Below the pieces are notes generated by a model, which ran no database searches, had not been told where the DNA came from, and saw nothing but the letters and a program-made list of their open reading frames with translations. A stretch of DNA of 64,000 bases from Candidatus Lindowbacteria bacterium RIFCSPLOWO2_12_FULL_62_27 (GTDB taxonomy: Bacteria > Lindowbacteria > 2-12-FULL-62-27), in contig MFPR01000001.1 of the NCBI GenBank assembly GCA_001784175.1, positions 186,001-250,000 on the forward strand, given 5' to 3'. Made by a program: the position numbers and the translations under genes. Shown piece after piece: positions 1,137 to 58,847 of this stretch; position 1 is the stretch's first letter; every line of letters starts with the position of its first letter.

Positions 1137-1282
1137 TCATCTTCTCCTGCTTTGTAAAGGATCCAGTCCTTCCATGGTTGTAAAACGTCCGGGATGCCTT
1201 TGTCGTCGGAGGCGCATACGGGCATCGAGGCAAGGACAAACGCGAGCAGGATGGCGACCCTCATCGGAGCTGGAAGCCGCAT
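1133..1282 (-). CDS. Tiny secreted-type ORF (49 aa), possible remnant of a large membrane-protein N-terminus
   Basis: Unannotated-length ORF of 49 codons. It reads MRLPAPMRVAILLAFVLAS then a VCAS-like cleavage site, followed by about 27 mature residues ending in QPWKDWILYKAGEDE. The hydrophobic segment is a convincing signal peptide. The stop (1135-1133) overlaps the cyclase start (1136-1134) as ATGA. A TACATT -10 element ends 8 nt upstream of ATG 1282; a second in-frame ATG is at 1264. From memory, large proteobacterial membrane proteins begin, after their signal peptide, with a similar PLxPWxxWVL segment, so this may be a truncated relic. It could equally be a genuine small protein. Function unknown. 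Confidence 0.5.
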   Translation of the reverse strand: MRLPAPMRVAILLAFVLASMPVCASDDKGIPDVLQPWKDWILYKAGEDE

Positions 1283-1290
1283 AGAGGGGA

Positions 1291-1296
1291 AATGTA
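1291..1296 (-). promoter_or_regulatory. Putative -10 element (TACATT) for the tiny ORF
   Basis: TACATT on the minus strand lies 8 nt before ATG 1282, the same geometry as at other operon starts in this window. No good -35 is visible, so the call is weak. Confidence 0.3.
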
Positions 1297-1321
1297 GCAG
1301 AGTTTGGGCGGAAGGGCTATT

Positions 1322-1819
1322 CTAAATTATGGCGAAGAAAGAGGCGGGGCTGATGTGGAAGCGTTTGCTGAGGCGTTCGATATGTTCTCTGGAGAGTTTA
1401 CGCTTTCCGTTGAGAATATCGGAGACGACGGATTGACCTCCCAAGTCGTCGGCCAAGTCGTACTGGCTCATTCCATTTTGTTCCATCAAGAACCCAAGCA
1501 TGTTCTCCGGAGAAACCTGCTGTCTTGGATACTCCTTTTTCTCGTACTCCACGATGAATGGAACGATGGCCTCCAGATACCTTTCAATGGCGGCCCGGTG
1601 GGAACGAGTAACATCCTGTTCCAGTTCTTCCATTAAAATTCCGGCGACTTTCGCGTAGTCCTGGTGCATTTGCCGATTCCGGATGGGCATGGGCGGCAAT
1701 AGGTCGTACAGCCGTTTCAGGAACCGGTTTTGAATGGGTCCTTTATAACGCAGTATTTTCTTCTCAAGCGTCTGTATCGTCACGTCAGTCTCTCCAGTCT
1801 CCATTGTCGTATTCTGCAT
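1322..1819 (-). CDS. higA: HigA-type antitoxin (HTH, XRE-like)
   Basis: Antitoxin and probable autorepressor of the upstream HigB toxin. The 165-residue protein has an acidic N-terminal region (toxin-binding in this family) and a C-terminal helix-turn-helix around residues 118-160 (SQYDLADDLGGQSVVSDI ... LSREHIERLSKRF). It overlaps the toxin gene by 35 nt if ATG 1819 is used; ATG 1804 would give a 20-nt overlap, and neither has a clear SD. Toxin-before-antitoxin order is typical of higBA. Confidence 0.85.
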   Translation of the reverse strand: MQNTTMETGETDVTIQTLEKKILRYKGPIQNRFLKRLYDLLPPMPIRNRQMHQDYAKVAGILMEELEQDVTRSHRAAIERYLEAIVPFIVEYEKKEYPRQQVSPENMLGFLMEQNGMSQYDLADDLGGQSVVSDILNGKRKLSREHIERLSKRFHISPASFFAII

Positions 1820-2072
1820 GCGTTAAGATGCATTTAATGAAAATGGTACCCAACTTGTAATTGACCACGGAGATCAAACGGTATTTATTGCCCGATACGT
1901 CAAAAATGGTATGAGGCTTGACGTAATCGGCCATTCCGAAGGTCTTTTTCAGTTCAATCGGCGTCTTGAACATGTTGGTTTCGACGGTTTGTACCCATGC
2001 ATCCAGCGCCGAAGCCGCGTCCGAATGCTTCGTCGAAAACTCATGAACCAGCTCTTTTCGTATCAGTCTCAC
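1785..2072 (-). CDS. higB: HigB-family mRNA interferase toxin
   Basis: Type II toxin of the RelE superfamily, a ribosome-dependent mRNA cleaver in characterised members. It has 95 residues with family features: N-terminal RLIRKELVHEF, the central KTPIELKKTFG, and C-terminal blocks FDVSGNKYRLISVVNY and FIKCILTHAEYD. The start is GTG 2072 with no SD. A -10 element ends 7 nt upstream, so the transcript is probably leaderless. It is translated with higA through an overlapping reading frame. Confidence 0.88.
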   Translation of the reverse strand: MRLIRKELVHEFSTKHSDAASALDAWVQTVETNMFKTPIELKKTFGMADYVKPHTIFDVSGNKYRLISVVNYKLGTIFIKCILTHAEYDNGDWRD

Positions 2073-2079
2073 CGACTAA

Positions 2080-2107
2080 ATAATAGCAAATTGCTATCAT
2101 TTGTCAA
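2080..2107 (-). promoter_or_regulatory. higBA promoter
   Basis: On the minus strand TTGACA (2107-2102), a 16-nt spacer and TATTAT (2085-2080). The -10 ends 7 nt before GTG 2072, placing the expected +1 at or next to the start codon. Confidence 0.75.
2083..2097. promoter_or_regulatory. Palindromic operator candidate of higBA
   Basis: ATAGCAA-A-TTGCTAT is a perfect 7-bp inverted repeat with a single central base. It fills the spacer and touches the -10 of the higBA promoter. HigA proteins autorepress through such palindromes, so this is the obvious HigA operator; binding is inferred. Confidence 0.6.
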
Positions 2108-2200
2108 ATTTTAGCAGAGTTTATTCGTATCGTAACCGCCGTAAAACTGCTGGCTGGATAGGGAGCCGGGTATTTGTGTCCATGCCCGGAGTGTGAGAAA

Positions 2201-5326: not shown

Positions 5327-5327
5327 A

Positions 5328-6503: not shown

Positions 6504-6509
6504 CGATCC

Positions 6510-7409: not shown

Positions 7410-7428
7410 CCCTCGCCCTCCCGGCCAC

Positions 7429-7496
7429 TGATATCATGATATCATGATATCATGATAGCTATCATGATATCATGATATCACTATATCATGATGTCA
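7429..7496. repeat. Palindromic TGATATCA octamer array, copy 1
   Basis: Three TGATATCA octamers (7429-7452), a central TGATAGCTATCA 12-mer (7453-7464), two more octamers (7465-7480), then two degenerate units ending in TGATGTCA (7489-7496). Positions 7437-7480 form a perfect 44-bp palindrome centred on AGCT, identical to 61387-61430. The array supplies the last codons and stop of trmFO and ends 19 nt before the xerC GTG. Function unknown; not a CRISPR and not a terminator (no U-tract). Confidence 0.95.
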
Positions 7497-8844: not shown

Positions 8845-8859
8845 CGAACCGTTCAACCC

Positions 8860-11277: not shown

Positions 11278-11290
11278 ATCTGTTCCTCCA

Positions 11291-11734
11291 TCAGTGGATC
11301 ACCGGGCTGTCGATGTTGCCGTCAAAGAGATAATCGGACTGACCGGCCGTCAACCCCAAGACCTCCGCGACCGTCTGCCGGGCGCGGCTATCCTGCTGGT
11401 CCGGCGGAACAAACAAAAGGTCCGTCATCACAGACTCCAGATCCTCTTTTTTGATGTACCCAAGGTAGTACAGCCGGAACAATTTGCCAACCACCTCCGG
11501 GTTTAATCCTTGGAGCTCCTCGGACGACAGGATCCGCGTGGGCGGACTCTCTTTCTTTCCAGATGCAATGTCCCCGAGGACATCCAGCAGAAAGAGGGCG
11601 TCGGCAATGAGATGGTCGGACACGCCCTTTTCGCGAAGCCTTTCCCGAACCTGCGCAGGATCCGGCCGGGTTTGCCCGCCGGCCCCCATCTGGCTCAGGA
11701 TTTCACGCAAAATCAAAATCAAATCGCTGTTCAT
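11291..11734 (-). CDS. smg: Smg/DUF494 family protein
   Basis: 147-residue protein of unknown biochemical role. It lies between dprA and topA, where smg also sits in proteobacteria. Visible features fit DUF494: a helical N-terminus (LILILREILSQMG), a middle RILSSEELQGLNPEV segment and a C-terminal VMTDLLFVPPD/EVLGL block; the similarity is modest and the synteny is the stronger argument. The start is ATG 11734, directly after a 35-bp G/C-rich repeat, whose G-run is the only SD-like sequence. Confidence 0.72.
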   Translation of the reverse strand: MNSDLILILREILSQMGAGGQTRPDPAQVRERLREKGVSDHLIADALFLLDVLGDIASGKKESPPTRILSSEELQGLNPEVVGKLFRLYYLGYIKKEDLESVMTDLLFVPPDQQDSRARQTVAEVLGLTAGQSDYLFDGNIDSPVIH

Positions 11735-11740
11735 GAAAAA

Positions 11741-11775: not shown

Positions 11776-11785
11776 ATTGCCTCGT

Positions 11786-12910: not shown

Positions 12911-12914
12911 CGCG

Positions 12915-14360
12915 CTACAATCCCAGTTTCGGCCAGAGCCGGTCCACCGTCTGCCTGACCTCGTCCGTCATTCGGATCTCGTCCGGCCAGGGGCGGGTGA
13001 ATCCCTCCTCGGGCCATTTGCGGGTGGCGTCGATGCCGACCTTCCATCCCACGTCAGGCAGGTCAGACGCGAAATTCAGTGTATCGAGCGGACCTTTGAC
13101 GAACGTGAAATCTCGTTTGGGATCGATCAGATTTCCGAGCCGCCAGACCACCTCCGCGTAATCGTGGAGGTTTACGCCTTCGTCAAACACCACCACGATT
13201 TTGGTGAACATGAGCTGTCCAAGACCCCAGAGCGCGTGCATCACTTTCTGCGCGTGGCCCGGATAGCGCTTGCGGATCGATACGAGCGCCAGATTGTGAA
13301 AGATGCCCTCGACCGGAAGGTTCATATCGACGATTTCAGGCAGGGTGAGGCGGACCAGCGGCAGAAAGAGGCGCTCGACAGCCTTGCCCATCCAGCCGTC
13401 CTCCATCGGCGGCCGGCCGACGATCGTGGAAGGATAAATCGGCGCGCGGCGCCGGCAAACGCCGGTGACATGAAAGACCGGATACTTGTCCTCAAGGCTG
13501 TAATATCCCGTGTGGTCCCCGAACGGCCCTTCGGTGGCCTGCGGTTCTTTCGGGTCGATGTAACCCTCGATGACGATTTCGGCGTTGGCCGGAACCTCCA
13601 GCGGGATCGTTTCGCAGGGCGCAAGCTCCACGGGCGCGTTTCTGAGAAACCCCGCGAACAAATATTCGTCGATGTCCGGCGGAAGCGGCGCGATCGCGGA
13701 GAATATGAGGGCCGGGTCGCCGCCCAGCACCACCGCCACCGGCATTCGCTCGCCCGCTGCGCGGTATTCCCCAAAGTGCGCCCGGCCGGCCTTCTGAGTC
13801 TGCCAGTGGAGGATGCAGGTTTTGCCGTCGAGGACCTGGATGCGGTACATGCCGACGTTGCGTTTCTTTTTGACCGGATCGCGGGTGACGACCTGTGCGA
13901 AGGTGATGTACCGGCCGCCGTCGCGCGGCCAGCATTTCATGATCGGAAATTCCAGGATGTTCACGTCGCCCTTCTGCACGATTTCCTTCACCGGCCCGGA
14001 CGACGACGCCGTCGGAATGAAATTCCCGATCTTCATGAGGAGCGGGAGCATTTTTATTTTGTCGACCAGCGACCGCGGCTCCGGAATCTGGATGAGGCTC
14101 TCAAGCTCGCGGACCTTGTCGTCGAGGCGCTCAACCCCGAGGGCCCAGGCCATCCGGCGGTCCGAGCCGAACAGGTTGATCGCAAGGGGAATTTGGGACT
14201 CGCGCACGTTCGTAAAGAGGAGCGCCGGGCCGCCGCGTTTCATGACACGGTCGGCGATTTCGGTGATCTCAAGCTCGCAGGACACGGACTCCGCTACTTC
14301 TTTGAGTTCCCCCTGCTTCTTCAAAAAGGAAATGAAATCGCCAAGCCCGCCGTATTTCAT
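12915..14360 (-). CDS. ubiD: UbiD-family decarboxylase
   Basis: Prenylated-FMN-dependent decarboxylase family, most often polyprenyl-hydroxybenzoate or menaquinone-precursor decarboxylase. 481 residues. Family blocks are visible: LGDFISFLKKQGELKEV at the N-terminus, GPALLFTNV, the ATEGPFGDHTGYYSLEDKYP core and IYPSTIVGRPPMEDGWMGKA. No UbiX partner or quinone genes are next to it, so the substrate is unassigned. ATG 14360 overlaps the gmhA stop as ATGA, and the stop falls 4 nt before dprA. Confidence 0.88.
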   Translation of the reverse strand: MKYGGLGDFISFLKKQGELKEVAESVSCELEITEIADRVMKRGGPALLFTNVRESQIPLAINLFGSDRRMAWALGVERLDDKVRELESLIQIPEPRSLVDKIKMLPLLMKIGNFIPTASSSGPVKEIVQKGDVNILEFPIMKCWPRDGGRYITFAQVVTRDPVKKKRNVGMYRIQVLDGKTCILHWQTQKAGRAHFGEYRAAGERMPVAVVLGGDPALIFSAIAPLPPDIDEYLFAGFLRNAPVELAPCETIPLEVPANAEIVIEGYIDPKEPQATEGPFGDHTGYYSLEDKYPVFHVTGVCRRRAPIYPSTIVGRPPMEDGWMGKAVERLFLPLVRLTLPEIVDMNLPVEGIFHNLALVSIRKRYPGHAQKVMHALWGLGQLMFTKIVVVFDEGVNLHDYAEVVWRLGNLIDPKRDFTFVKGPLDTLNFASDLPDVGWKVGIDATRKWPEEGFTRPWPDEIRMTDEVRQTVDRLWPKLGL

Positions 14361-14947
14361 CGGCGGCGGCGCCGCGCAAGCGACGATTCGATCAGGTCGC
14401 ACAAGATGTGCAGGGTCGCAATGTGCGCCTCCTGGGTGCGGGGGGTCGAGGCGGCCGGAACCCGCAGCTCAATGTCCACGAGGCGCGCCATCGGCCCGCC
14501 GGTTTTGCCGGTTAGACCGATCCGGTAAAGGCCCATGCGCCCGGCGAGCCGCAGCGCCCGGTTGACGTTGGCCGACCGGCCCGAGGTCGAGATCGCGAGC
14601 GCCACGTCGCCCCGCCGGCCCAGCGCCTCGATCTGCCGGTCGAAGACGCGATCGTAGCCGTAGTCGTTTCCGAGACACGTCAGGACCGAAACGTTCGTGT
14701 TGAGCGAGATCGCCGGATAGCCCGGGCGCTCACGCAGAAACCGGCCGACCAGTTCCGCCGCGAAATGCTGCGCGTCCGCAGCGCTGCCGCCGTTGCCGAA
14801 CGACAGGATTTTCTTCCCGGTCCGGACGGCCCGGACGCACCGGCGCGCCGCGGCCTCGACACGCGTGAGAAATCCCCCGTCGGCCGCGAGCCGCCGCAGA
14901 AGATCGGAGCTTTCACTGTAAGACTGCCGGATATTCACTCGATCCAT
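14357..14947 (-). CDS. gmhA: Phosphoheptose isomerase (SIS domain)
   Basis: Sedoheptulose-7-phosphate isomerase, first step of ADP-heptose for LPS core, cytoplasmic. 196 residues with a single SIS domain: GKKILSFGNGGSAADAQHFAAELVGRF, GDVALAISTSGRSANV and GLTGKTGGPMARLVD. The paralogue DiaA has the same fold, so a replication role cannot be excluded. TTGCAA-17-TAGCCT ends 6 nt before ATG 14947 and no SD is present. Divergent from nth. Confidence 0.85.
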   Translation of the reverse strand: MDRVNIRQSYSESSDLLRRLAADGGFLTRVEAAARRCVRAVRTGKKILSFGNGGSAADAQHFAAELVGRFLRERPGYPAISLNTNVSVLTCLGNDYGYDRVFDRQIEALGRRGDVALAISTSGRSANVNRALRLAGRMGLYRIGLTGKTGGPMARLVDIELRVPAASTPRTQEAHIATLHILCDLIESSLARRRRR

Positions 14948-14953
14948 GCGCGG

Positions 14954-14982
14954 AGGCTACCCAGAACGCCGAAAGATTGCAA
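14954..14982 (-). promoter_or_regulatory. gmhA promoter candidate
   Basis: TTGCAA (14982-14977), 17-nt spacer, TAGCCT (14959-14954), then 6 nt to ATG 14947. The -10 is weak (3 of 6) but the spacing matches other leaderless-type starts here. Confidence 0.4.
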
Positions 14983-14990: not shown

Positions 14991-15019
14991 TTGACGGCGA
15001 CGCCGGTCGAACGTATTTG
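14991..15019 (+). promoter_or_regulatory. nth promoter candidate
   Basis: TTGACG (14991-14996), 17-nt spacer, TATTTG (15014-15019), then 6 nt to ATG 15026. The -35 lies back-to-back with that of gmhA. Confidence 0.55.
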
Positions 15020-15025
15020 CATCGT

Positions 15026-15709
15026 ATGAAAGCTGGCGACTCAAAGAACGACACGGCGGCCCGCGCGCGGAAAATCATCGCCCGGCTTCGCAAGGCCTAC
15101 CCCGACGCGACCTGCTCGCTCACGCACGAAGATCCGCTGCAGCTTCTCGTGTCGACCATCCTGTCGGCCCAGTGCACGGACGAGCGGGTCAACCTCGTGA
15201 CGCCGGCGCTGTTCGAGAAGTACCGCACCGCCCGGGATTTTGCGGGCGCGCCGATTCCGGAAATCGAGAAATTCGTCCGCTCCACCGGCTTCTACCGCAA
15301 CAAGGCCCGAAGCATCAAGCTCTCGTGCCAGTCCATCTGCGACCGGTTCGGCGGACGCGTGCCGGACACGATGGAGGAGCTTCTTTCGCTGCACGGCGTC
15401 GCCCGAAAAACCGCGAACGTTGTCCTGGGGAACGCGTTCGGGAAAAACGAGGGGATCGTCGTCGACACGCACGTCTTTCGCATCGCCCACCGGTTGGGCC
15501 TGTCAGCCGAAAAGAAAAACCGGGACCGGATGGAGCGGGACCTCATGCCGATGGTGCCGAAAAAAGACTGGACCGACTTCAGCCACCTCCTGATCCACCA
15601 CGGCCGCGCCGTCTGCAAGGCGCCGAAACCCCGGTGTGAGGGCTGTCCGGTCGAGACGCTATGTCCCAGGGTCGGCGTTATGTCAGGCCGGGGTCGAGCG
15701 GGAGGCTGA
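15026..15709 (+). CDS. nth: Endonuclease III
   Basis: Base-excision repair glycosylase/AP lyase for oxidised pyrimidines. 227 residues. Helix-hairpin-helix LLSLHGVARKTANVVLGNAFG with the catalytic Lys, catalytic Asp in VDTHVFRIAHRLG, and a C-terminal 4Fe-4S cluster with Cys spacing C-x6-C-x2-C-x5-C (CKAPKPRCEGCPVETLC). ATG 15026 is chosen because a promoter -10 ends 6 nt upstream; no SD. Its 3' end overlaps the convergent MFS gene by 27 nt. Confidence 0.96.
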   Translation: MKAGDSKNDTAARARKIIARLRKAYPDATCSLTHEDPLQLLVSTILSAQCTDERVNLVTPALFEKYRTARDFAGAPIPEIEKFVRSTGFYRNKARSIKLSCQSICDRFGGRVPDTMEELLSLHGVARKTANVVLGNAFGKNEGIVVDTHVFRIAHRLGLSAEKKNRDRMERDLMPMVPKKDWTDFSHLLIHHGRAVCKAPKPRCEGCPVETLCPRVGVMSGRGRAGG

Positions 15710-16882: not shown

Positions 16883-18103
16883 TTAGAGTTTCGCGCCCTT
16901 GGGGATGACGATGATGCCGCTCTCGCTTACGAAAAACCGCTTGCGGTCCTCTTCGAGATTGTATCCGATCTCGATTCCCTGCGGAATGCGAACCCCCTTG
17001 TCGACGATGGCCCGGCGGACCTTCGCGTGGCGGCCCACGTCGACCTTGTCGTACAGGATCGAATCCTCGACCTGCGCGTAGGAGTGGACAAAACACCCCG
17101 GTGAAAGAATGGACCTCAAGACCATGGCGCCGGAAATGATGCAGCCCTCCGACACCAGACACTCGACCGCATGGCCCCGCCGGGTCGGACCTTCGTCCAG
17201 GGCAAATTTGGCCGGCGGATAATCGATCGGATAGGTCCGGAACGGCCAGGCGACGTTGTAGAGGTTCAGGACCGGCGAAACGCTTCGCACATCCATGTTG
17301 GCCTCATAATAGGCGTCGACGGTCCCGACGTCGCGCCAGTACCCGATTTCCTTGTCGGTCATCCCCGGCACGCGGTTGGTGGCGAAATCGTAGGCGTAAA
17401 CGCGCCGGTGCGGGATCATCGCGCGGATGATGTTTTTTCCGAAATCGTGCTCGGAATCCTCATGCGCGTCGGCGTCCAGCTCCTCAATCAGCACGTCCGA
17501 ATTGAAAATGTAATTACCCATCGACGCCAGGCACCAGCCCGGTTTGGAGGGAATCGTCTTGCCCTCGGCCGGTTTCTCCTCAAACCCCACGATCTGCCAG
17601 TCCTCGTTGACCTCGATGATGCCGAACTGGTTCGACTGGTCCTGCCGCACCGGGATGGCGGCGATCGTGAGGTCGGCGGTCTTGCTCGTGTGAAACTCCA
17701 TCATCTGGTTGATGTCCATCTTGTAGACGTGGTCCCCGCCGAATACGGCCACCCGCTCGGCGCCGGAATCGACGATCAGGTTCGAGTTCTGGTAGATGGC
17801 GTCGGCCGTGCCCCGGTACCACACTTCGCCAATCCGCATCTGGGCCGGCACCGGGTCGACGTACATGCCCATGCTCCGAGGCAGGTTGTAGGCGACCATG
17901 ATGTGCCTAATCAGCGAGTCGGCCTTGAACTGCGTCAGGACCTTGATCTTGCTCAGGCCCGAGTTGATGAAATTGTTGAGCACAAAATCGATGATCCGGT
18001 ACTTGCCCGCAAACGGCACCGCAGGCTTCGCGCGGTCCTGCACGAGCGGCCCCAGCCGCGTCCCGCGACCGCCGGCGAGGATCATCCCAAGCGTGTTTTT
18101 CAT
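16883..18103 (-). CDS. glgC: Glucose-1-phosphate adenylyltransferase
   Basis: Makes ADP-glucose for glycogen synthesis from ATP and glucose-1-phosphate. 406 residues. An N-terminal nucleotidyltransferase ([45 protein letters not shown]) is followed by a C-terminal left-handed beta-helix with hexapeptide-like repeats from about 300. TATGAT ends 8 nt before ATG 18103 with TTGTGT 17 nt further up; no SD. No other glycogen genes are in view. Confidence 0.96.
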
Positions 18104-18111
18104 GTTACTGC

Positions 18112-18140
18112 ATCATACTCCGCCGGCCCCGCAGACACAA
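18112..18140 (-). promoter_or_regulatory. glgC promoter
   Basis: TTGTGT (18140-18135), 17-nt spacer, TATGAT (18117-18112), then 8 nt to ATG 18103. Confidence 0.6.
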
Positions 18141-18781: not shown

Positions 18782-19783
18782 ATGAATTACATCGGCTTTC
18801 TGGTGACGGCCTTCGGTCTCTATGCGGCGATGACACTGGAGCACCTCCCACTCCATATCTTTTACGCCCCCAGCGCCATCTGTCTGATCCTCTTTATGGG
18901 CCTCGGCGGGACTCTCGTGTCTTACCGGTGGGCAGAGATCCGACGGGCCGTATCGGCGTGTTTCGACCGGGCAACCCCGCGGCCGAAAGAGGACTGGCTG
19001 ACGTACTCCCGAATTTTTTCGCTTCTGTCGAACTACACATTCGCCGCCGGGTGGATGGGCGTCATCCTCGGGACCATACACGTCCTCGGCAGCGTCGAGG
19101 AGGTGGATGGCGACATCGGGAAATTGGCCGCTGGACTTGCCCTGGCATTCCTTTGCCCTCTGATCGGAACGCTCATCTCCAAGTTTTTGTTCGATCCGAT
19201 GCGGAATTTTTCGGAACGAAAGGCGCTCGATACGGGGCCAGCAAGCGCGCCCGTGGAACAGGCGGCCGCGCCGGCCCCCACTCCCAATCTCCTCTTTAGA
19301 ATCGTTCTTTTCTCCGCATCCGCCCTTGTCTTATTGGCAATCGCCGTCATGGTTTCATGGAAGGTCGGGTCGATGCAGGCTGAGCACAGGCGCGACCGGG
19401 CTGCGACAAATCCGGACACCGCCCCCGTCATCCATAGAGACCGTACCACGATCCTCGACACCTTCCTGCTCGGCACGAAGCAGAAACCCGGCCTGGATAT
19501 CTCCATCCGCGATCAGGGGAAGATCCACCGGCTCCGATGCACCGTGTATCTCGGATATTCGCGCGACTACAACAGGAGCGGCTCCGGATTCTTCGAAGAA
19601 CTGCGGTCCCGCACGCCCATGCTGCGGGAAATCGTGATCCGCGTCCTTGGCAATAAAACCGCGGATGAACTCCAGCCGCAACATCTGGATGCGATTGAGG
19701 ACGAGCTTCTCAGCCGCATCAACGAAGTGCTGAATCACGGAACCGTCGTCGACATCATGTTCAGCGAATACGTCGTTGATTGA
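18782..19783 (+). CDS. Predicted MotA-like membrane domain fused to FliL
   Basis: 333-residue inner-membrane protein, predicted to act at the flagellar stator. TM1 (1-20) and TM2 (about 26-47) are followed by a charged cytoplasmic loop. TM3/TM4 (84-103, 113-137: GWMGVILGTIHVLGSV ... GKLAAGLALAFLCPLIGTLI) resemble the MotA/TolQ/ExbB channel core. An Ala/Pro linker leads to TM5 (170-193). The C-terminal domain (225-333) is FliL-like: LRCTVYLGYSR, LRSRTPMLREIVIRVLGNKT and DEVLNHGTV-type ending ILF-like IMFSEYVVD. FliL normally has one TM and binds MotAB, so a fusion makes functional sense. No motB is adjacent. The MotA call rests on eye-matching. Confidence 0.7.
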   Translation: MNYIGFLVTAFGLYAAMTLEHLPLHIFYAPSAICLILFMGLGGTLVSYRWAEIRRAVSACFDRATPRPKEDWLTYSRIFSLLSNYTFAAGWMGVILGTIHVLGSVEEVDGDIGKLAAGLALAFLCPLIGTLISKFLFDPMRNFSERKALDTGPASAPVEQAAAPAPTPNLLFRIVLFSASALVLLAIAVMVSWKVGSMQAEHRRDRAATNPDTAPVIHRDRTTILDTFLLGTKQKPGLDISIRDQGKIHRLRCTVYLGYSRDYNRSGSGFFEELRSRTPMLREIVIRVLGNKTADELQPQHLDAIEDELLSRINEVLNHGTVVDIMFSEYVVD

Positions 19784-19808
19784 TTTCGCCCGGGCGCGGT
19801 AGTAGTCT
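19780..19808 (+). promoter_or_regulatory. Promoter candidate of the CBS-korAB operon
   Basis: TTGATT (19780-19785) overlapping the end of the fliL-fusion gene, 17-nt spacer, TAGTCT (19803-19808), 8 nt to ATG 19817. Confidence 0.5.
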
Positions 19809-19816
19809 TTACGCGC

Positions 19817-20305
19817 ATGAAGAACACGGCTGAGTTTTCGCTCGAAAACATTCTCAAAACCGACAAGATCCGCCATCTGCGTCCCCACGTCGTGCCGATG
19901 CTGGGCCGGAAGGCCACCATTTCGGACGCGATCCGGGCGATGCAGACGACGCGGCGGAGCTGTGTCCTCATTTGCCACGGCAAAGAGGTGGTCGGGATTT
20001 TTACGGAACGCGACGTGCTCCTCAAGGCCGCGAATCGAGGGCTCGAGGCGTTCGACCAGACGCTTGACGCCGTCATGACGCCGAATCCCCGGACCATCTC
20101 CATCAACGATTCGATCCTTTCCGCCATCCGAATCATGACCGAAAAGGGGTTCCGGCACCTCGCCGTGATCGGCGAAGACGGAGAATGCATCGGGACGATT
20201 TCGATGCGCAATGTCCTCGGGTATCTTGCCGAGCATTTTCCGGAAACGGTCTACAACCTGCCGCCGGTCTCGGGGCAGGTCAACGAAGACAGGGACGGCG
20301 CCTGA
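19817..20305 (+). CDS. CBS-pair domain protein
   Basis: 162 residues, almost entirely a tandem CBS (Bateman) module: ISDAIRAMQTTRRSCVLI...GIFTERDVL and ILSAIRIMTEKGFRHLAVI...GTISMRNVLGYL. Such modules bind AMP/ATP/SAM or similar adenosyl ligands and act as regulators. The stop is 5 nt before korA, so it is the first gene of that operon. A second CBS protein closes the operon, hinting that the pair regulates KorAB activity. No SD; likely leaderless. Confidence 0.88.
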   Translation: MKNTAEFSLENILKTDKIRHLRPHVVPMLGRKATISDAIRAMQTTRRSCVLICHGKEVVGIFTERDVLLKAANRGLEAFDQTLDAVMTPNPRTISINDSILSAIRIMTEKGFRHLAVIGEDGECIGTISMRNVLGYLAEHFPETVYNLPPVSGQVNEDRDGA

Positions 20306-35125: not shown

Positions 35126-36712
35126 CTAGGCCCCAAGCGCCCGCCTCAATTCGTCGGCGACCTCACGGGCCGTTTCCGACAGTATGTCTTTGGGGGCTTG
35201 CCGCGTTCTTCTCATCCGGTTGAACACGGCGGATTCCACGGCGATCCGGAAAAGCGGATCGGCCTCGACCCCCGACGACAGCCGCCCCAGAAGCTCGCGG
35301 CGGACGGCCTCGTATCCCGCCGGCGTCGACCATGCGCTGGCCGTCGCCGACGTCTCTTCCATATTATATATCGGCACCCCCGCAAGGCTGCTCAAATCCT
35401 CGACGCCTTCGACGCCCCCAAGTCCAAGGGCCGGACAGAGCTGCCGGCAACGGCCACGGTATCCGGCCACCAGGCGTTCCAGTTGCCGCCGGTACGCCAG
35501 GAGATTCTCGCCGGTCCGGAGCCTGCGTCCGCCGGCGATCTCCAGCCGCGGCGCCCTTTTCTCCGCCTCGTCGTAAGTCCAGTTTTCGACCGTATCAAAC
35601 CGGCCAGCCGACAACAACGCCCTTCGCACTTTGGCGCTTTGCCGGCTGTGCGAAACACGGCCGGGTCCCAGAGAAAAGTCGGCGCCCGCAAGGATGATCT
35701 CCGACGCGCCGGCGCGGCAGGCCAGATCAAACGCCGGCAGAATCACCGATCCGCCCCCGGCGAGAGTTCCCGGATCGCCCCACGTGTCACACAGCCACCG
35801 CTCCAGCGGATGGTCGCCGGCAAACACGCACAAGCGATCCGCCGGAAGTCTCCGCAGAACCTGTGGATGGACGGCGGCTGAAACGGCCCATCGACCCGGC
35901 GACCGCGACGACTTGCCGAGCCCCGCAAGATGCTCTGCGGTGTCCGGCCGCGGATCCAAGCACACCCCGACGTCCACCCGGACGCCATACTCGAGCAGCG
36001 GCAACACCGCGCTGTCGACGGCGATCACCCGCAGACGGTCATGCCGGCGCGCAATTTCCGGAGCGGACCGGTCCAGACTCGGCCCGGACCCCGCCACGCA
36101 GACAGCCTCGCCGGCCCACGCCGAAAAGAGCGTCCGCACCGGTCGCATCGCCGACAGCGCCGAAAGATTCGCGATGAGGTTGCCGGCCACGAGCCGGCCG
36201 ATTTCCGACAGCGTCATCACGGCGGCGATCCGCTCCTCAAACGCCGCACGCGCCGCGCCAGACAGCGCGTCCAGATATTTATCCAGGGGCCGCTTCAACG
36301 ATGGATGCGGAATGAAACGGTATTGGATCATGTCTTCAACGCCGACTTCGCGAAGGAACGCCATTAGGTCGGGCGCGTGCGTGAAACACCGCGCCCGGCC
36401 ATCGGCCGGAGGCGGCTGCAACGCCAGCTCAGAGAAAGGCTCGAAGTACGCGAGCAGAATGGCGCGGCCGGTGTTCAGGATCGACTGCGCCGCGCGCGCG
36501 CCGCCGCCCACCAGAACCACAAGGTCCCCGTCCTTCACGTCCAGCCCCGCCACCCATCGTTCGGATTCCCGCGATGGGTCATATCGGCTGGCCATGTAAA
36601 ATCGCTCGCCGCCCACTTCAAGGACCGGCGCCGGCTCGCCATTCTGCGCCTTTTCCATCCGCAAACGGTAAGGGGGAAGCTCCGGGCATCCGGAGTCGCT
36701 GGCATCAGGCAT
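35126..36712 (-). CDS. Motility-associated Maf/DUF115 glycosyltransferase-like protein
   Basis: Maf proteins transfer nonulosonic acid sugars to flagellin. 528 residues with the DUF115 core (AVCVAGSGPSLDRSAPEI, DSAVLPLLEYGVRVDVGVCLDPRP, EIILAGADFSLGPGRVSHS). First gene of maf-fliS-fliT-like, consistent with flagellin modification. ATG 36712 is 6 nt from CAAAAT, with TTGACA 16 nt further up; no SD. It is divergent from a dTDP-sugar dehydratase gene whose promoter overlaps. Confidence 0.88.
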   Translation of the reverse strand: MPDASDSGCPELPPYRLRMEKAQNGEPAPVLEVGGERFYMASRYDPSRESERWVAGLDVKDGDLVVLVGGGARAAQSILNTGRAILLAYFEPFSELALQPPPADGRARCFTHAPDLMAFLREVGVEDMIQYRFIPHPSLKRPLDKYLDALSGAARAAFEERIAAVMTLSEIGRLVAGNLIANLSALSAMRPVRTLFSAWAGEAVCVAGSGPSLDRSAPEIARRHDRLRVIAVDSAVLPLLEYGVRVDVGVCLDPRPDTAEHLAGLGKSSRSPGRWAVSAAVHPQVLRRLPADRLCVFAGDHPLERWLCDTWGDPGTLAGGGSVILPAFDLACRAGASEIILAGADFSLGPGRVSHSRQSAKVRRALLSAGRFDTVENWTYDEAEKRAPRLEIAGGRRLRTGENLLAYRRQLERLVAGYRGRCRQLCPALGLGGVEGVEDLSSLAGVPIYNMEETSATASAWSTPAGYEAVRRELLGRLSSGVEADPLFRIAVESAVFNRMRRTRQAPKDILSETAREVADELRRALGA

Positions 36713-36718
36713 GGCTGC

Positions 36719-36746
36719 ATTTTGGCATTGAATCGACCGATGTCAA
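36719..36746 (-). promoter_or_regulatory. maf operon promoter
   Basis: TTGACA (36746-36741), 16-nt spacer, CAAAAT (36724-36719), 6 nt to ATG 36712. It overlaps the divergent rfbB promoter. Confidence 0.5.
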
Positions 36747-36757
36747 TAAGATTAGAT
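36728..36757 (+). promoter_or_regulatory. rfbB promoter candidate
   Basis: TTGAAT (36728-36733), 18-nt spacer, TTAGAT (36752-36757), 6 nt to ATG 36764. It interleaves with the maf promoter on the other strand. Confidence 0.45.
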
Positions 36758-36763
36758 GCGGTC

Positions 36764-37786
36764 ATGAAGGTTCTTGTCACGGGGGGATGCGGTTTTATTG
36801 GAAGCTACGTGGTGAAGCTCCTGCTCGCGGAAGGCGTCCGCGTGGTCAATCTGGACAAGCTGACCTACGCGGGCAATTTGGCCAACCTGCGGGAGGTGGA
36901 ACGCCACCCGAAGTATCGGTTCATTCGCGGGGACGTCTGCGATCCGGGAGCGGTGGCAAAAGCCGCCCGGGGCGTCGACGGGATCGTGCACCTTGCGGCC
37001 GAAACGCACGTCGATCGATCGATCCTCAGTCCCGGCGCGTTTGTCCGGACCGACATGCTCGGAACGTATGTGCTCCTGGAGGAGGCGCGCAAACAGCGGC
37101 TGAAATTTTTCGCGTACGTCAGCACCGACGAAGTCTACGGATCGATCGCGCGCGGGAAATTCCGGGAGACCGATCCCACGCGGCCCACCAACCCGTACGC
37201 CGCGTCCAAGCTCGGCGCGGACCGGCTGGCCCACAGCTATTTCGCGACGTACGGGCTCAAGGTCGTGATCACGCGCGGGAGCAACACGTACGGGCCGCGC
37301 CAGTTTCCGGAGAAGCTCATCCCGCTGACCATCATCCGCGCGCTTCAGCGGCAACCGATCCCGGTGTACGGCGACGGCCGGCAGCGCCGCGACTGGCTGC
37401 ATGCCGAGGACCACGCGCGAGCCATCTGGCGTGCCGCCACACGCGGTCGCGCCGGAGAGACCTACAACGTGTCGGGACACGGCGAGCGCGAAAACATCTG
37501 GATGGTGCGGAAAATCCTCGCAGAATTGCACGCGCCGGACTCGCTCATCCGCTTCGTCCGCGACCGCGAGGGCCATGACCGGCGGTACGCGCTGGAGGAC
37601 GGCAAACTCCGCCGCGACCTCGGATTCCGCCTGAGCCGGCCGGACATCGGCCGGGAGCTTCGCCGGACCGTCCGCTGGTATGTCGACAACAGACGATGGT
37701 GGGAGCCGGTGATCCGGCGGAACGCGGCGTTCAAGGAATACTTCAAAAAACAATACGGTGACCGACTGCGGCGTTCCAGGAGTTGA
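36764..37786 (+). CDS. rfbB: dTDP-glucose 4,6-dehydratase-like SDR
   Basis: Extended SDR making 4-keto-6-deoxy sugar nucleotides for surface glycans or flagellin glycosylation. 340 residues. NAD motif VTGGCGFIGSYVVKLL, HLAAETHVDRSI, STDEVYGSI and YxxxK (NPYAASKLGAD), then NTYGPRQFPEKLIPLTI and GDGRQRRDWLHAEDHARAI, all typical of RmlB. ATG 36764 fits the promoter spacing; in-frame ATG 36740 is less likely. No rmlA/C/D genes are adjacent. Confidence 0.9.
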   Translation: MKVLVTGGCGFIGSYVVKLLLAEGVRVVNLDKLTYAGNLANLREVERHPKYRFIRGDVCDPGAVAKAARGVDGIVHLAAETHVDRSILSPGAFVRTDMLGTYVLLEEARKQRLKFFAYVSTDEVYGSIARGKFRETDPTRPTNPYAASKLGADRLAHSYFATYGLKVVITRGSNTYGPRQFPEKLIPLTIIRALQRQPIPVYGDGRQRRDWLHAEDHARAIWRAATRGRAGETYNVSGHGERENIWMVRKILAELHAPDSLIRFVRDREGHDRRYALEDGKLRRDLGFRLSRPDIGRELRRTVRWYVDNRRWWEPVIRRNAAFKEYFKKQYGDRLRRSRS

Positions 37787-47621: not shown

Positions 47622-47701
47622 AAACAGAAACCAGCCCCACGTCTCCCGCCGCGTCTCCGTTCGCAGGTAGCGGTATAACTGTTTGAAAGCTTCGATCGCG
47701 G

Positions 47702-48910: not shown

Positions 48911-48933
48911 CCCTCAATCCCTCCCTGCGGCGT

Positions 48934-49983: not shown

Positions 49984-50006
49984 AGGTCAGCACATTAACT
50001 CGATCC

Positions 50007-51686: not shown

Positions 51687-51692
51687 GGATCA

Positions 51693-53417: not shown

Positions 53418-53422
53418 GATCG

Positions 53423-55003
53423 CTACCTTTCCGAATTTCCGACGCCGGCCGGCGGAAGTTCGTCGCCGTCGGGGGCGACACACGCTTCCAGGAAAAGGGT
53501 GACGAGGTCCGCGTTCAGATGACCCGCCGCGGCCGTGTCCCGCAAAATCTTCTGCGCCTCCGGCTCAGGGATCCGCTTCTTGTACGGCCGGTCGGCCGCG
53601 GTCAGCGCGTCGTAGATGTCGGCGACCGCCAGAATCTGGCCTTCCAGCGGAATCTCGTCGCCTTTCAACCCCTGCGGGTAGCCGGTGCCGTTCGGCCGCT
53701 CGTGGTGCGTGGCGGCCCAGACGGGAATCTCCTTCAGATCCTTCGGCCAGTGGATCTTGGCAAGAATGTCCCACGTTTTTCGTACGTGGTCCTTCATCAC
53801 TTTGAACTCCTCATCGGAAAGGTTTCCCTTGGCCAGAACCAGGTGTTGATATTCGGTCTCGGTAAGCTGCGGCGTCGGATCGTCGGCGATCCGGTACACC
53901 GACCGCCGCATCCGCTCGAACGCGCCCTTGTCCTCCGCGCTGACGGCGCCTGGCGTGATGTTCCGGCGGATCCGATCCAGGTCCGAGTCCAGCCCCGCGC
54001 AAAAAGACCGGTAGGACTCCGGATTCAGGCCGCCGTTTTCCAGAGCGCGGATCTTCTCCGCCAGCTTGATCTGCCCGAACCTCAGCCGGATCGCTTCGAT
54101 CTCGTGCGGCTCCAGCTTGTCACGCTTGTTCAGGATCGCCTCCGGCACCGTGATCTTGCCGATGTCGTGCAAAAGCGCGGCGAACCGAAGCTTCCGCAGC
54201 GACTCCTCCGAGTAATGAATGCGCTTGAACGGCGCCCGGCCGCTCGCGCTGATCGCGCGCGCGATCCGGTCGGAATAGAGCGCCACCCGCACGGTGTGGC
54301 CGTAGGTGATCCGGTCGCGTTCGCCGAGGGCGTGGATGGAGGACTCGATGAAGGACTCGAAGAGATTGATCTGGCTTTCGATGAGCAGGGAATTCTCCAG
54401 CGCGACGGAGGCGATGGAGGCGATCGACATCAGCATCTTTTCGTCCTGCGGCCGGAATGCTCCGGACTTTTTGTTGAGGACCTGCATGACGCCCGTCACG
54501 CCGCCGCCGTGCGACCGCATGGGCGCGGCCAGAATGTTCCGCGTGTGATAGCCGGTCTGCTTGTCCACGTCGGGGTTGAAGTCCGGATGGCGATGGACGT
54601 CCGGGACGTTCACCAGCTTGCCCTTCCGGAGCGCCAGACCCGCGATCCCGCGGTCCGACGGCACCCGCAGCATCTTCCGGCCCGTGCCCTCCGCAACCTT
54701 CGACCAAAGCTCCTCCCGGGACTCGTCGTAAATGAAAATGCTGGTCCGCTCGGCGCCGAGCAGCACCGACGTCTCCATTGCAAGAAATTTCAGAAGCTGA
54801 TCGACCCCGCGGGTCGACGAAAGAAGGGTCGACAGCTCAAGGAGCGTGTAGAGCCGGTCGTTTTCCTCCGCAAGCGCCTGCCGCGCGGGCGCACGACGCC
54901 CGCCGCCGCCTTTCATGCTGACACCTTCTCCCTTGGCGCTCTGGGACCGCAGAGCGCGCTTGGCCCGCACGGAACCCGGCCCCGGATGGGTATTCCTTGC
55001 CAT
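53423..55003 (-). CDS. GAF-HD-GYP phosphodiesterase
   Basis: Predicted c-di-GMP hydrolase, 526 residues. GAF domain about 70-205 (AERTSIFIYDESREELWSKV), HD motif LLHDIGKITVPEAILNKRDKL near 285-305, GYP motif HHERPNGTGYPQGLKG near 440 and VADIYDALTAADRPYKK. About 90 extra residues lie between the HD and GYP halves. A near-consensus promoter puts +1 next to ATG 55003. First gene of the pilus operon, ending 5 nt before the MshEN ATPase start. Confidence 0.92.
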   Translation of the reverse strand: MARNTHPGPGSVRAKRALRSQSAKGEGVSMKGGGGRRAPARQALAEENDRLYTLLELSTLLSSTRGVDQLLKFLAMETSVLLGAERTSIFIYDESREELWSKVAEGTGRKMLRVPSDRGIAGLALRKGKLVNVPDVHRHPDFNPDVDKQTGYHTRNILAAPMRSHGGGVTGVMQVLNKKSGAFRPQDEKMLMSIASIASVALENSLLIESQINLFESFIESSIHALGERDRITYGHTVRVALYSDRIARAISASGRAPFKRIHYSEESLRKLRFAALLHDIGKITVPEAILNKRDKLEPHEIEAIRLRFGQIKLAEKIRALENGGLNPESYRSFCAGLDSDLDRIRRNITPGAVSAEDKGAFERMRRSVYRIADDPTPQLTETEYQHLVLAKGNLSDEEFKVMKDHVRKTWDILAKIHWPKDLKEIPVWAATHHERPNGTGYPQGLKGDEIPLEGQILAVADIYDALTAADRPYKKRIPEPEAQKILRDTAAAGHLNADLVTLFLEACVAPDGDELPPAGVGNSER

Positions 55004-55011
55004 ATTCCAAA

Positions 55012-55041
55012 ATTATATGGGTGAGGAGTGCGACTTGTCAA
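55012..55041 (-). promoter_or_regulatory. Promoter of the HD-GYP/pilus operon
   Basis: Consensus TTGACA (55041-55036), 18-nt spacer, consensus TATAAT (55017-55012), 8 nt to ATG 55003, no SD. Confidence 0.8.
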
Positions 55042-55048
55042 TAAATGC

Positions 55049-56041
55049 TCATTCGGTGGGAATCAACCGCCCGAAATAGACGACCTTTTCGGTTGCCGTG
55101 TCGCCTGAGTCCATCTGCGAGAGGCGCTGCCCGAGCTTTTGTTTGAACGTCACCCGCCGCACCGCCTGGCCCGTGCCCGGGCCTTCGATCAGATATTCGC
55201 CGCCCGCGAAGATCATCACGTGAACAACGCGGTCCGGTTTCTTCGCGTTCGCGAGAAACACGAGATCGCCGCGCCTCAAGTCCCGGCGGCGGATCGCCCG
55301 CGACACCATCCATTGCTCGTGCGAGTCCCTCGGAATCGAAAGCCCGGCCGCGCGATAGGCCACATGCGCGAGGCCGGAGCAGTCAACACCTGTCACCGCG
55401 CGGCGATAGTCCGGCCCGTACGGACTGAGACCGCCCCAGTAATATGGAGTACGGATGAAGCCCTGCGCGTTTTTCAGAATCTCCAGCCGGGTCCGCCATT
55501 CGGAAGACTTCGGCCCATCGACAAGCCGGACGTCCTTTTTTCGCATCCAGCCTGTCAGACCCCCATGATAGGAGACTTCCATCCATCCGCCGCGCCGGCC
55601 CAGAACCGAGAGCCGGCTCCCGAAGGGAATCGTCAGCAACGGATCGCTCTTCTCTCCGAAAAGCCCCGCCGGCGCCGGGAAAATGTCCGACCACCCGCGC
55701 CGCGCCACGCCCGACGCCCCACCCGGCGCCGCCGGCACGGCACTCAGCGCCGACCGCCGAACCCAGCCCGGATATCCCTCCCACTGCTTCTTGTGCGTGT
55801 ACTCCGCCTGCCCCGGAACCTCAACCAGCGCCCAGTCGTCCCGCCATTCGCGGATGACGACCGTTTCGCCAAACAGAAGCTGCGTTTCCTGCAAAGGATC
55901 GTGAACGTAACTGTCGATCGCGTCCTTCGGCTCCGACCGCACGTCGGCCACGGGAACAATCACGCGCATGATCTCATCCGACGCGCCCGCCATCGACGCG
56001 CAGAGGACAACGCAGACGAGGGCGGATAAAAAATACCTCAT
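55049..56041 (-). CDS. NlpC/P60 cell-wall peptidase with SH3 domains
   Basis: 330 residues with a signal peptide (LSALVCVVLCASMAGA). Two SH3-like segments (about 25-100, 120-180: IPFGSRLSVLGRRGGWMEVS) precede the C-terminal NlpC/P60 domain: TPYYWGGLSPYGPD, catalytic Cys in GVDCSGLAHVAYRAAGL and His in VVHVMIFAGG. Likely cleaves peptide stems (gamma-D-Glu-DAP type). ATG 56041 overlaps the dsbD stop (ATGA). Confidence 0.92.
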   Translation of the reverse strand: MRYFLSALVCVVLCASMAGASDEIMRVIVPVADVRSEPKDAIDSYVHDPLQETQLLFGETVVIREWRDDWALVEVPGQAEYTHKKQWEGYPGWVRRSALSAVPAAPGGASGVARRGWSDIFPAPAGLFGEKSDPLLTIPFGSRLSVLGRRGGWMEVSYHGGLTGWMRKKDVRLVDGPKSSEWRTRLEILKNAQGFIRTPYYWGGLSPYGPDYRRAVTGVDCSGLAHVAYRAAGLSIPRDSHEQWMVSRAIRRRDLRRGDLVFLANAKKPDRVVHVMIFAGGEYLIEGPGTGQAVRRVTFKQKLGQRLSQMDSGDTATEKVVYFGRLIPTE

Positions 56042-57825
56042 GAGCCGTGCCCGCCCAGCTCCGACAACAACGCTTCTGCCGAAAACTCGCCGACCCAACG
56101 GATCCGCTCCACGCCGGCGGTGTCGAAGTAGATCAGCGTCGGCACGCCGGAAATGCCGAATCTCTCCCGCGCCTCCTGCGCCTCCGGCGCGTCGTACAGG
56201 GTGAGGTCCACCTTGAGCCGGACGGCCTGCTCCAGCGCCGCGCGCACGCGCGGGTCCGCGTACGTTGTCCGGTCCATCAGCTTGCAGGGCAGACACCACT
56301 CGGCGGAAAAATCGAGGGCGACGGGCCGGCCGGCGGCGCGGGCCGCGTCGAAACTCGCAGCATCGTACGGAAGCCAGAATTCCCCGGCGGCGTCCTCGCG
56401 CGGCGCGGTCAGAAAAAAGCTCGCGCCGACAACCGCCAAGCCGATGGCGGAAAGACCGGCCCACAGGCGCGGCCACCGGCGCGCGCGTTTCACACAAACC
56501 CACGCCGCCGTCCCGCACGCCGCCAGTAATGTAAGGCCGAACAACGCCCGCTCGGCCGCGTCCGGAATCAGGGGCGCGCAGAAATAGACGGCCAGCCCCA
56601 GAAGCACAAATCCGAAACACCATTTCACCACATCCATCCACGCGCCCAGTTTCGGGAGCGCTGGAATACGCTCCGAAAAAAGGCCCAGGAGCAAATACGG
56701 CAAGCCCAGTCCCGCCGACAGCACCGAAAACAGCAGAAACCCCAGCGCCGGAGACTGGCGCGAACCGACATACGCCAGAAGCGCCACCACGAAGGGCCCG
56801 ATGCATGGCGCGGCCACCACGCCCATCGTCGCGCCCATCCCGAACGCTCCCAGCGGCGCGCTCCCGCCGCTCACGCGCTGCGCCCACGAGGCCGGCAGGC
56901 CAAAGCCGACCCAGCCGAACATGCCGGCCGACAGATACAGCATGAGAAGCGACAGCGCGATCAGGACCGGCGGATTCTGAAGCGCCGCGCCGAAGAATCC
57001 GCCCGTGAGGCCCGCCACGGTCCCGAGCGCGCTGAAGACGAGGACGAGACCGAGAAAATAGGCCACCGCGTCGGTCACCGGGCGGCGGCTCGGCCCGCGG
57101 CCGCCGAAAAAGGCGACGGTGATCGGAATCATCGGATACACGCACGGCGTGAGGTTCAGGGCCACGCCGCCCCAGAAAATCAACAGGAGCGCAAGAAACA
57201 CGCCCTTCTCTTGCATGAGATGTGCGATCGCGTTCCCGCCGACCGATTCCTCCGGCGGGTTCGGGATGCGCAGGCCGCGCGCCAGACCATAATCCAACTG
57301 GGGACTCGGGTGAGCTTGGGGAAGCGGCGCGACCGTGAGCGGAATGTCAAGCCGCGCCTCGGCCGGCGGCAGGCACTTCTCGTCATCGCAGGCCTGATAC
57401 CGGAGCGCCGCCGTCATGCGATGAACGCCTGCGCCAACGTCCGCGATGTGTACTTTCCATTTGAAAACGGTCCGCCCTTCATACAAATCCAGCGGTGACT
57501 CGTCAAAGGACAAAACCTTGCGGACGCCCGCCGGATAGGCGACCTCCGAAACCGTGAACCCCTCCGGCGCCGTCACCCGCACGTCGGTCGGAATCAGATA
57601 CTCCATGGCAGGCCGATGAGAATTGATGTGCCAGCCGCCCGCAACATCCGCGGTCAGCCAGACCTCCACCGTTTGCATGGCCGTGACCGTTTCGGCGCGC
57701 ACGTCCGCCGAAAGCCGCACCGGCTGCTCCGCATCCGCGGGCCCGGCCGCGAAGGCCGGACACACCCCGATTAGAAACACAGACAAGAGGAAAAACGTCG
57801 ATCGACGGACAGCGCCCAACCGCAT
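56038..57825 (-). CDS. dsbD: Thiol:disulfide interchange protein DsbD
   Basis: Carries electrons from cytoplasmic thioredoxin to the periplasm. 595 residues: signal peptide, N-terminal DsbD-alpha-like domain (about 30-165), eight-TM domain with redox Cys in NLTPCVYPMIPI and VAAPCIGPFV, and a C-terminal thioredoxin domain with WCLPCK. ATG 57825 is chosen by promoter spacing (TATCTC 7 nt upstream) and signal peptide; ATG 57846 is an alternative. Confidence 0.94.
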   Translation of the reverse strand: MRLGAVRRSTFFLLSVFLIGVCPAFAAGPADAEQPVRLSADVRAETVTAMQTVEVWLTADVAGGWHINSHRPAMEYLIPTDVRVTAPEGFTVSEVAYPAGVRKVLSFDESPLDLYEGRTVFKWKVHIADVGAGVHRMTAALRYQACDDEKCLPPAEARLDIPLTVAPLPQAHPSPQLDYGLARGLRIPNPPEESVGGNAIAHLMQEKGVFLALLLIFWGGVALNLTPCVYPMIPITVAFFGGRGPSRRPVTDAVAYFLGLVLVFSALGTVAGLTGGFFGAALQNPPVLIALSLLMLYLSAGMFGWVGFGLPASWAQRVSGGSAPLGAFGMGATMGVVAAPCIGPFVVALLAYVGSRQSPALGFLLFSVLSAGLGLPYLLLGLFSERIPALPKLGAWMDVVKWCFGFVLLGLAVYFCAPLIPDAAERALFGLTLLAACGTAAWVCVKRARRWPRLWAGLSAIGLAVVGASFFLTAPREDAAGEFWLPYDAASFDAARAAGRPVALDFSAEWCLPCKLMDRTTYADPRVRAALEQAVRLKVDLTLYDAPEAQEARERFGISGVPTLIYFDTAGVERIRWVGEFSAEALLSELGGHGS

Positions 57826-57832
57826 GCTATGT

Positions 57833-57861
57833 GAGATACCGGACATCCCCGCAAATGTCAA
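57833..57861 (-). promoter_or_regulatory. dsbD promoter
   Basis: TTGACA (57861-57856), 17-nt spacer, TATCTC (57838-57833), 7 nt to ATG 57825. Confidence 0.65.
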
Positions 57862-57931
57862 TTCCCAGCGACGACCCCGTCCCTTTTATTTTCAGGATTT
57901 TTCTTGTATTGAGATAGATGGACGTTCAAAT

Positions 57932-58002
57932 TGGGGCGTCGTCTAACGGTAGGACTGCAGGCTCTGGACCTGCCTGTCCAGGTTCGAATCCTGGCGCCCC
58001 AG
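57932..58002 (+). tRNA. tRNA-Gln (anticodon CTG)
   Basis: 71-nt cloverleaf without encoded CCA. Acceptor stem TGGGGCG/CGCCCCA plus discriminator G, anticodon stem GCAGG/CCTGC enclosing loop CTCTGGA (anticodon CTG, reads CAG), T-arm CCAGG-TTCGAAT-CCTGG. The D-arm contains GTCTAACGGTAGGAC. Confidence 0.95.
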
Positions 58003-58040
58003 TATCACAGTCTCTGACAGCCATCCACGGCTCCCTCCGC

Positions 58041-58070
58041 TTGCGTGTCCGCCGTGTCGCATCCTATGCT
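58041..58070 (+). promoter_or_regulatory. Promoter candidate of the SDR gene
   Basis: TTGCGT (58041-58046), 18-nt spacer, TATGCT (58065-58070), 6 nt to ATG 58077, no SD. Confidence 0.5.
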
Positions 58071-58076
58071 CCGAGC

Positions 58077-58847
58077 ATGCGCATCGTGATCACCGGCTTG
58101 AACGGTACGGTCGGGCCCAAGGTCGCGCGGGTGTTTCGGGGGCAGGGGGCCGACGTCGTCGGGTGGGACAGGAGCGAGGTTCCTCCGGACGACAGGAACG
58201 CCGTGGCGAAGTACATCGAGCGGACGCGGCCGGACGCGATCTGCCATCTGGCCATGGGGAGCGAGGCATGGGCGGGAGTTCTGGCCAGGTATGCGGCGGC
58301 GAATGACATCCCGTTCCTGTTTGCCAGCACGGCGATGGTCTTTGACGCAAGCCCCGACGGCCCGCACCGCCCGGGCGACCGGCGGACGGCGAAAGACGAC
58401 TATGGACGATACAAGATACGCTGTGAAGACGCCGTGCTGGAGAATCATCCCGGCGCCATCGTCGCGCGATTTGGATGGCAGATCGATTCTGATGCAGTCG
58501 GAAACAACATGCTCGCGCATCTGGATCAACAACAGTCGCGGGACGGAAACGTACAGGCCAGTCGCCGGTGGATTCCGGCGTGTTCGTTCATGGACGACAC
58601 GGCAGTGTCGCTTTGGGCGCTGATCGCCGGGCGCGAGCGCGGCGTGTTTCACCTCGACAGCAACGCCCGGGACGCTTGGACGTTTGACCGCATCGCCCTC
58701 GCCGTCCGGCGCCGGTTCGGCCGGGAGAGGTGGGCCATCGAAGTCACCGAATCCTACACGCACGATCAGCGACTGGGCGGCCACGAAAACCGCATCACAA
58801 GCCTCTCCGACCGCCTGCCTTTACAAGGGCTGGGGGATAGGTCATGA
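58077..58847 (+). CDS. NAD(P)-dependent epimerase/sugar-nucleotide reductase-like SDR (RmlD-like)
   Basis: 256 residues. N-terminal nucleotide-binding IVITGLNGTVGPKVARVF, the ICHLAMGSEAW segment, FLFASTAMVFDASPDGP and YxxxK as DDYGRYKIRCE. The fold resembles RmlD-type dTDP-4-keto-sugar reductases but is short. Substrate unknown; the rfbB-like gene 20 kb away could supply a precursor. It lies 74 nt after tRNA-Gln with its own promoter. Confidence 0.78.
   Translation: MRIVITGLNGTVGPKVARVFRGQGADVVGWDRSEVPPDDRNAVAKYIERTRPDAICHLAMGSEAWAGVLARYAAANDIPFLFASTAMVFDASPDGPHRPGDRRTAKDDYGRYKIRCEDAVLENHPGAIVARFGWQIDSDAVGNNMLAHLDQQQSRDGNVQASRRWIPACSFMDDTAVSLWALIAGRERGVFHLDSNARDAWTFDRIALAVRRRFGRERWAIEVTESYTHDQRLGGHENRITSLSDRLPLQGLGDRS

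Follow-up and report, generated by a model that had tools for sequence, protein, structure and literature searches.

Does a promoter that ends within a few bases of a start codon mark an mRNA that begins at that codon, and how common is the arrangement in the genome that carries it? The question is raised by a 64,000-nucleotide stretch of DNA (hereafter the window; genome G000, C1:186001-250000), in which a sequence-only reading had named ten genes with a sigma70-like −10 element ending 6–9 nt before the start codon and had taken them as a sign of widespread leaderless mRNAs. In bacterial promoters, the −10 element ends about 6–7 nt before the transcription start, so a 6–9 nt spacer would put that start on, or beside, the A of the AUG.

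The host is an uncultured bacterium; its genome is 4.39 Mb in size, 94% complete and assembled in 44 contigs, with a GC content of 61–63% in the part analysed. It had been described as proteobacterium-like; kinship data instead place it outside the proteobacteria. Among the genomes compared, its phylum consists of G000 and two relatives (G001 and G002), all from one family, and the closest glgC matches are only about 60% identical. The lineage is deep, poorly sampled and composed of a single family.

Promoters abutting start codons in the window

All ten promoters are present letter for letter, with the spacings originally given, and each opens an open reading frame. Two stand back to back: that of gmhA (SIS, by Pfam; TTGCAA-17-TAGCCT-6-ATG, 14945..14982, minus strand) opens the coding sequence 14947..14357, and that of nth (HhH-GPD, by Pfam; TTGACG-17-TATTTG-6-ATG, 14991..15028, plus strand) opens 15026-15709. 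Also on the minus strand are the promoters of higB (TTGACA-16-TATTAT-7-GTG, 2070..2107; coding sequence 2072..1785), glgC (TTGTGT-17-TATGAT-8-ATG, 18101..18140; coding sequence 18103..16883, with homologues) and dsbD (TTGACA-17-TATCTC-7-ATG, 57823..57861; coding sequence 57825..56038). On the plus strand, the promoter TTGATT-17-TAGTCT-8-ATG (19780..19819) opens a gene at 19817-20305, for which we keep the earlier name of CBS-domain gene, and TTGCGT-18-TATGCT-6-ATG (58041..58079) opens an SDR/RmlD-like gene (58077-58847; Pfam). For this last gene, read-through from a tRNA promoter may also occur, because a tRNA-Gln(CTG) gene detected by ARAGORN (57931-58003) ends 73 nt before its start codon.

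The three remaining promoters belong to a maf-type gene (TTGACA-16-CAAAAT-6-ATG, 36710..36746, minus strand; coding sequence 36712..35126), rfbB (TTGAAT-18-TTAGAT-6-ATG, 36728..36766, plus strand; coding sequence 36764-37786) and an HD-GYP gene (TTGACA-18-TATAAT-8-ATG, 55001..55041, minus strand; coding sequence 55003..53423). The divergent maf-type and rfbB promoters overlap (36710-36766), and since the proposed start codons are only 51 nt apart, the entire intergenic region is promoter. For the HD-GYP and maf-type genes the promoters match exactly, but the start codons at 55003 and 36712 lie upstream of those preferred by coding score (54970 and 36658, respectively), and thus these two starts were inferred partly from the promoters themselves. 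The HD-GYP promoter has the top score of the ten (13.3). Single cases can be weak (5.8 for nth and 5.6 for rfbB), as would be expected if matching cases had simply been picked from among many hexamers.

A positional peak at operon heads

Gene-start statistics were drawn from 850 kb of the genome, comprising 650 called genes. The gene caller used coding statistics and start-codon type alone and never the upstream sequence, and therefore starts could not be pulled toward promoters. Genes were deemed operon-leading if they had a divergent neighbour or a co-directional gap of at least 80 nt (30 nt in later tests), and within-operon if the gap was less than 30 nt; the first test included 265 leading genes, and the later sets 356 leading and 288 within-operon genes. 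Pairs of sigma70-type −35 and −10 elements were ranked by a bipartite score with fixed promoter weights, used in place of an unconstrained expectation-maximization motif search, which had drifted to purine-rich motifs.

Alignment of the sequences upstream of leading genes reveals the positional TANNNT peak that the sequence-only reading had proposed as a check. The hexamer ends 6, 7, 8 and 9 nt before the start codon in 16, 12, 8 and 5 of the 265 leading genes, compared with about two genes per position elsewhere, and TTGAC peaks 30–33 nt before the start, which is the matching −35 position. In the larger set of 356 leading genes, TANNNT at 6–9 nt was observed 60 times versus 12.2 expected, whereas in the 288 within-operon genes it was observed 7 times versus 3.8 expected, corresponding to an excess of 13.4% and 1.1%, respectively. 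Within-operon genes have no clear −10 peak, though their Shine–Dalgarno (SD) peak is present.

Scoring of complete promoters gave a similar picture. Pairs with a bipartite score of at least 6 ending 6–9 nt before the start codon occur at 56 of the 356 leading genes versus 9.1 expected, an excess of about six-fold (Poisson p < 1e-21), and in the window at a score of at least 5 they precede 9 of the 26 operon-leading genes, whereas 0.9 would be expected from other distances. This genome-wide excess, together with positive and negative controls that behaved as they should (see below), leaves picking by chance with next to no probability as an account of the pattern as a whole, although chance must account for some single examples, roughly 9 among the 56 at the score used. 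The background-corrected share of leading genes is 13–17% across score thresholds from 0 to 6, rises to 25–31% in divergently transcribed leading genes (n = 126), and comes to about 19% net when alternative starts are allowed (98 genes with a match; 107 matches versus about 39 expected). "Widespread" therefore holds in the sense of a genome-wide excess, which concerns roughly one in six operon-leading genes and not most of them.

A TANNNT at −15 to −7 could instead act in translation, as an enhancer of the unstructured, A/T-rich kind put forward for genes without SD sites; in some phyla, a bias toward A/T around −20 to −10 has been interpreted as a potential site for ribosomal protein bS1 (PMC5397173). 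Here, however, TANNNT is accompanied by a TTGAC box 16–18 nt upstream and is most frequent 6 nt from the codon, and it is nearly absent within operons, where genes would need an enhancer equally. We consider an enhancer highly improbable.

Start codons and Shine–Dalgarno sites

When every plausible in-frame start was considered, promoters 6–9 nt upstream were found before 88 ATG codons versus 17.9 expected, with no enrichment before GTG (15 versus 12.0), TTG (4 versus 9.0) or non-start codons. Likewise, the start codon is ATG in 58 of 61 candidate leaderless genes compared with 209 of the 295 other leading genes (p 9e-6), and a pyrimidine occupies position −1 in 48 of the 61 (p 2e-4). Neither of these features, nor SD content, played any part in candidate selection. 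As the excess is confined to ATG, the GTG-started higB, whose promoter is exact but whose start codon lacks this genome-wide backing, is the weakest leaderless case among the named examples.

SD sites are depleted in the candidates (p 3e-4), with complementarity at or below background. At a threshold of dG ≤ −5, they are present in 11% of candidates, compared with 16% at the control position of these same genes; the share is 34% in other leading genes and 41% in within-operon genes. Part of the depletion is mechanical, since the −10 element sits where an SD site would be. Within operons, SD sites are enriched. The anti-SD tail of the host is canonical (GGATCACCTCCTTTC), which, together with SD use inside operons, suggests that the cell runs both modes of initiation.

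These data also bear on whether the promoters are real but the start codons misannotated, the true starts lying downstream behind short leaders with SD sites. The caller does not set starts with certainty, and alternatives to the start used are plausible for two of the ten named genes. However, the enrichment is tied to ATG at 6–9 nt and is seen neither at other distances nor at other in-frame starts nor at non-start codons, and the starts were called blind to the upstream sequence.

Orthologues and control genomes

Orthologues of the host genes in two other genera (family-level distance; median protein identity 48%) provide a further line of evidence. A promoter 6–9 nt before the start is kept in 8 of 14 pairs when the host gene has one, versus 6 of 39 otherwise (p 0.005; the numbers, 14 and 39 pairs, are small). 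Clear conserved examples, with gene names read from sequence, include an NfeD-like gene (TTGATT-17-TATGAT-7/6-ATG) and a radical-SAM-like gene (TTGTTT-17-TATAAT-6 / TATACT-8-ATG). The similar promoter-to-ATG distance in some orthologues of other genera argues against misannotation once more, and on balance we regard misannotated starts as very unlikely to explain the pattern. Another clear case is an lgt-like gene, also named from its sequence (C26:25424; orthologues in L138 and L111), where an upstream block, CAACTTGCAACTT...TGGGA-AGT...ATG, is common to the three genera; it exceeds the needs of a plain promoter and is a possible regulator site.

The same pipeline applied to 250 kb of Escherichia coli returned an excess of 0.0% (TANNNT 11 versus 11.1 expected). 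The Thermus thermophilus megaplasmid pTT27 served as the positive control, leaderless genes being known to abound in its group; there the excess was 16.3%, compared with 13.4% in the host. The two family relatives have an excess of 9.6% and 4.5% by TANNNT, and the peak is also present with the bipartite score. Finally, the whole-genome pattern TTGAC-N16-18-TANNNT-N6-8-ATG has 69 matches in the host, compared with 14 for the N12-14 version, and its reversed form has 3. Of 60 genomes, the host has the highest ratio of N6-8 to N12-14 matches, the median of unrelated genomes being 1.4; several unrelated genomes have ratios of 2–3, so the feature is not unique to the host.

Leaderless transcripts as the best explanation

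The promoter architecture and its position, the confinement to ATG and to the first genes of operons, the SD depletion and the conservation in some orthologues are, with high probability, best explained by promoters placed for leaderless transcripts. Transcription from an ordinary sigma70-type promoter would begin on, or a few bases from, the A of the start codon, giving an mRNA with neither a 5′ untranslated region nor an SD site, and the ribosome would load directly onto the 5′-terminal AUG; it is these two steps, the transcription start itself and the loading at the 5′ AUG, that we infer. The remaining genes would be leadered, partly with SD sites read by the normal anti-SD. By this estimate, about 13–20% of operon-leading genes, roughly a tenth of all genes, are probably leaderless.

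The phenomenon is already known, as signal, position and GC dependence match those of the TA-led genes described by Zheng et al. in 2011 (PMC3160421); what is newly documented is the lineage. Those genes, reported in Actinobacteria, Deinococcus-Thermus, Acidobacteria, Deltaproteobacteria and others, likewise have TAnnnT about 10 bp upstream in high-GC genomes, with a signal informative at T1, A2 and T6 only (PMC3160421). The groups concerned are other than the lineage described here, which is poorly sampled. Predicted shares average 15.8% for those deltaproteobacterial genomes that contain leaderless genes and 13.3% for Acidobacteria (PMC3160421), and 9.6% of Caulobacter coding sequences are experimentally leaderless (PMC4117421). 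The host frequency is near that of the Acidobacteria, below the 39% of Deinococcus-Thermus (PMC3160421) and inside the range spanned by Acidobacteria, Deltaproteobacteria and Caulobacter; the leaderless reading is supported, but the claim that its density would be notable for a proteobacterium-like genome is not.

A close parallel in start-codon use is Caulobacter crescentus, which also has AUG-dominated leaderless starts, a similar gene share and low SD use (PMC4117421, PMC9031893), although its leaderless starts were mapped experimentally (PMC4117421), whereas those proposed here are predicted from sequence. Mycobacteria and Streptomyces have abundant mRNAs with the start codon at the 5′ end, as proposed for the host, but also use GUG efficiently, whereas the host has no GTG excess; its restriction to ATG fits the AUG preference of E. 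coli and Caulobacter and not the GUG tolerance of Actinobacteria (PMC9031893). Leaderless initiation would thereby extend to a deep lineage for which hardly any reference genomes exist, and start codons there may be misplaced by gene finders that depend on SD sites.

An eroded ribosomal protein bS1

Leaderless mRNAs load directly on 70S ribosomes and do not need bS1 (review PMC9031893). The sole bS1 (rpsA) homologue of the lineage in all three genomes (L223:1165-3033 on C26 of the host, L224 and L225) is strongly divergent: it scores 197, 178 and 163 bits against TIGR00717, compared with 270–690 in most of 145 genomes, and Pfam S1 matches one stretch (44.8 bits) versus six (348.5 bits) in a typical protein. 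An S1-domain search had suggested that there was no bS1 at all, which the finding of this divergent, full-length protein rules out. Homology to bS1 in the PDB covers domains 2–6 (E 3e-34), and rpsA directly follows cmk (in the host a cmk/acyltransferase frame by Pfam, in G001 a frame clearly similar to it), the same order as in E. coli. By homology over domains 2–6 and by its place after cmk, the lineage protein is bS1.

In S1 domains, the RNA-binding face is made up of the GxF and GLxHxS/T motifs. In domains 3–5, these motifs are absent from all three lineage proteins and present in all seven comparison proteins, a loss that questions the RNA binding of the lineage bS1, not its descent. A functional link to leaderless starts is attractive, since bS1 aids leadered mRNAs whereas leaderless ones can do without it. 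Initiation might have been rewired across the lineage, the bS1 scaffold being kept and its central RNA-binding face lost, with leaderless AUG starts expanding because such mRNAs load without bS1; we consider this scenario rather unlikely. Among 15 other genomes with low-scoring bS1, there was no excess of the leaderless arrangement (233 N6-8 versus 210 N12-14 matches in total), although several of these low scores coincide with an incomplete match or a frame of reduced length. If the erosion were functionally linked, the lineage would offer a natural test of initiation with an mRNA-binding-deficient bS1.

A palindromic repeat

The window also contains two copies, at about 7430-7485 and at 61386-61435, of a perfect palindrome of 46–50 bp, (AA)GTGATATCATGATATCATGATAG|CTATCATGATATCATGATATCAC(TT). 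Further copies in the host genome are located at C1:18831, C1:176291, C26:29207, C26:50824, C26:132805 and C28:372864. The core was not found in G002 or in eight unrelated genomes; it occurs 15 times in the host (14 copies identical) and 16 times in G001, where the centre is consistently TATA instead of AGCT. In all eight copies examined, the palindrome sits in a short gap between co-directional genes.
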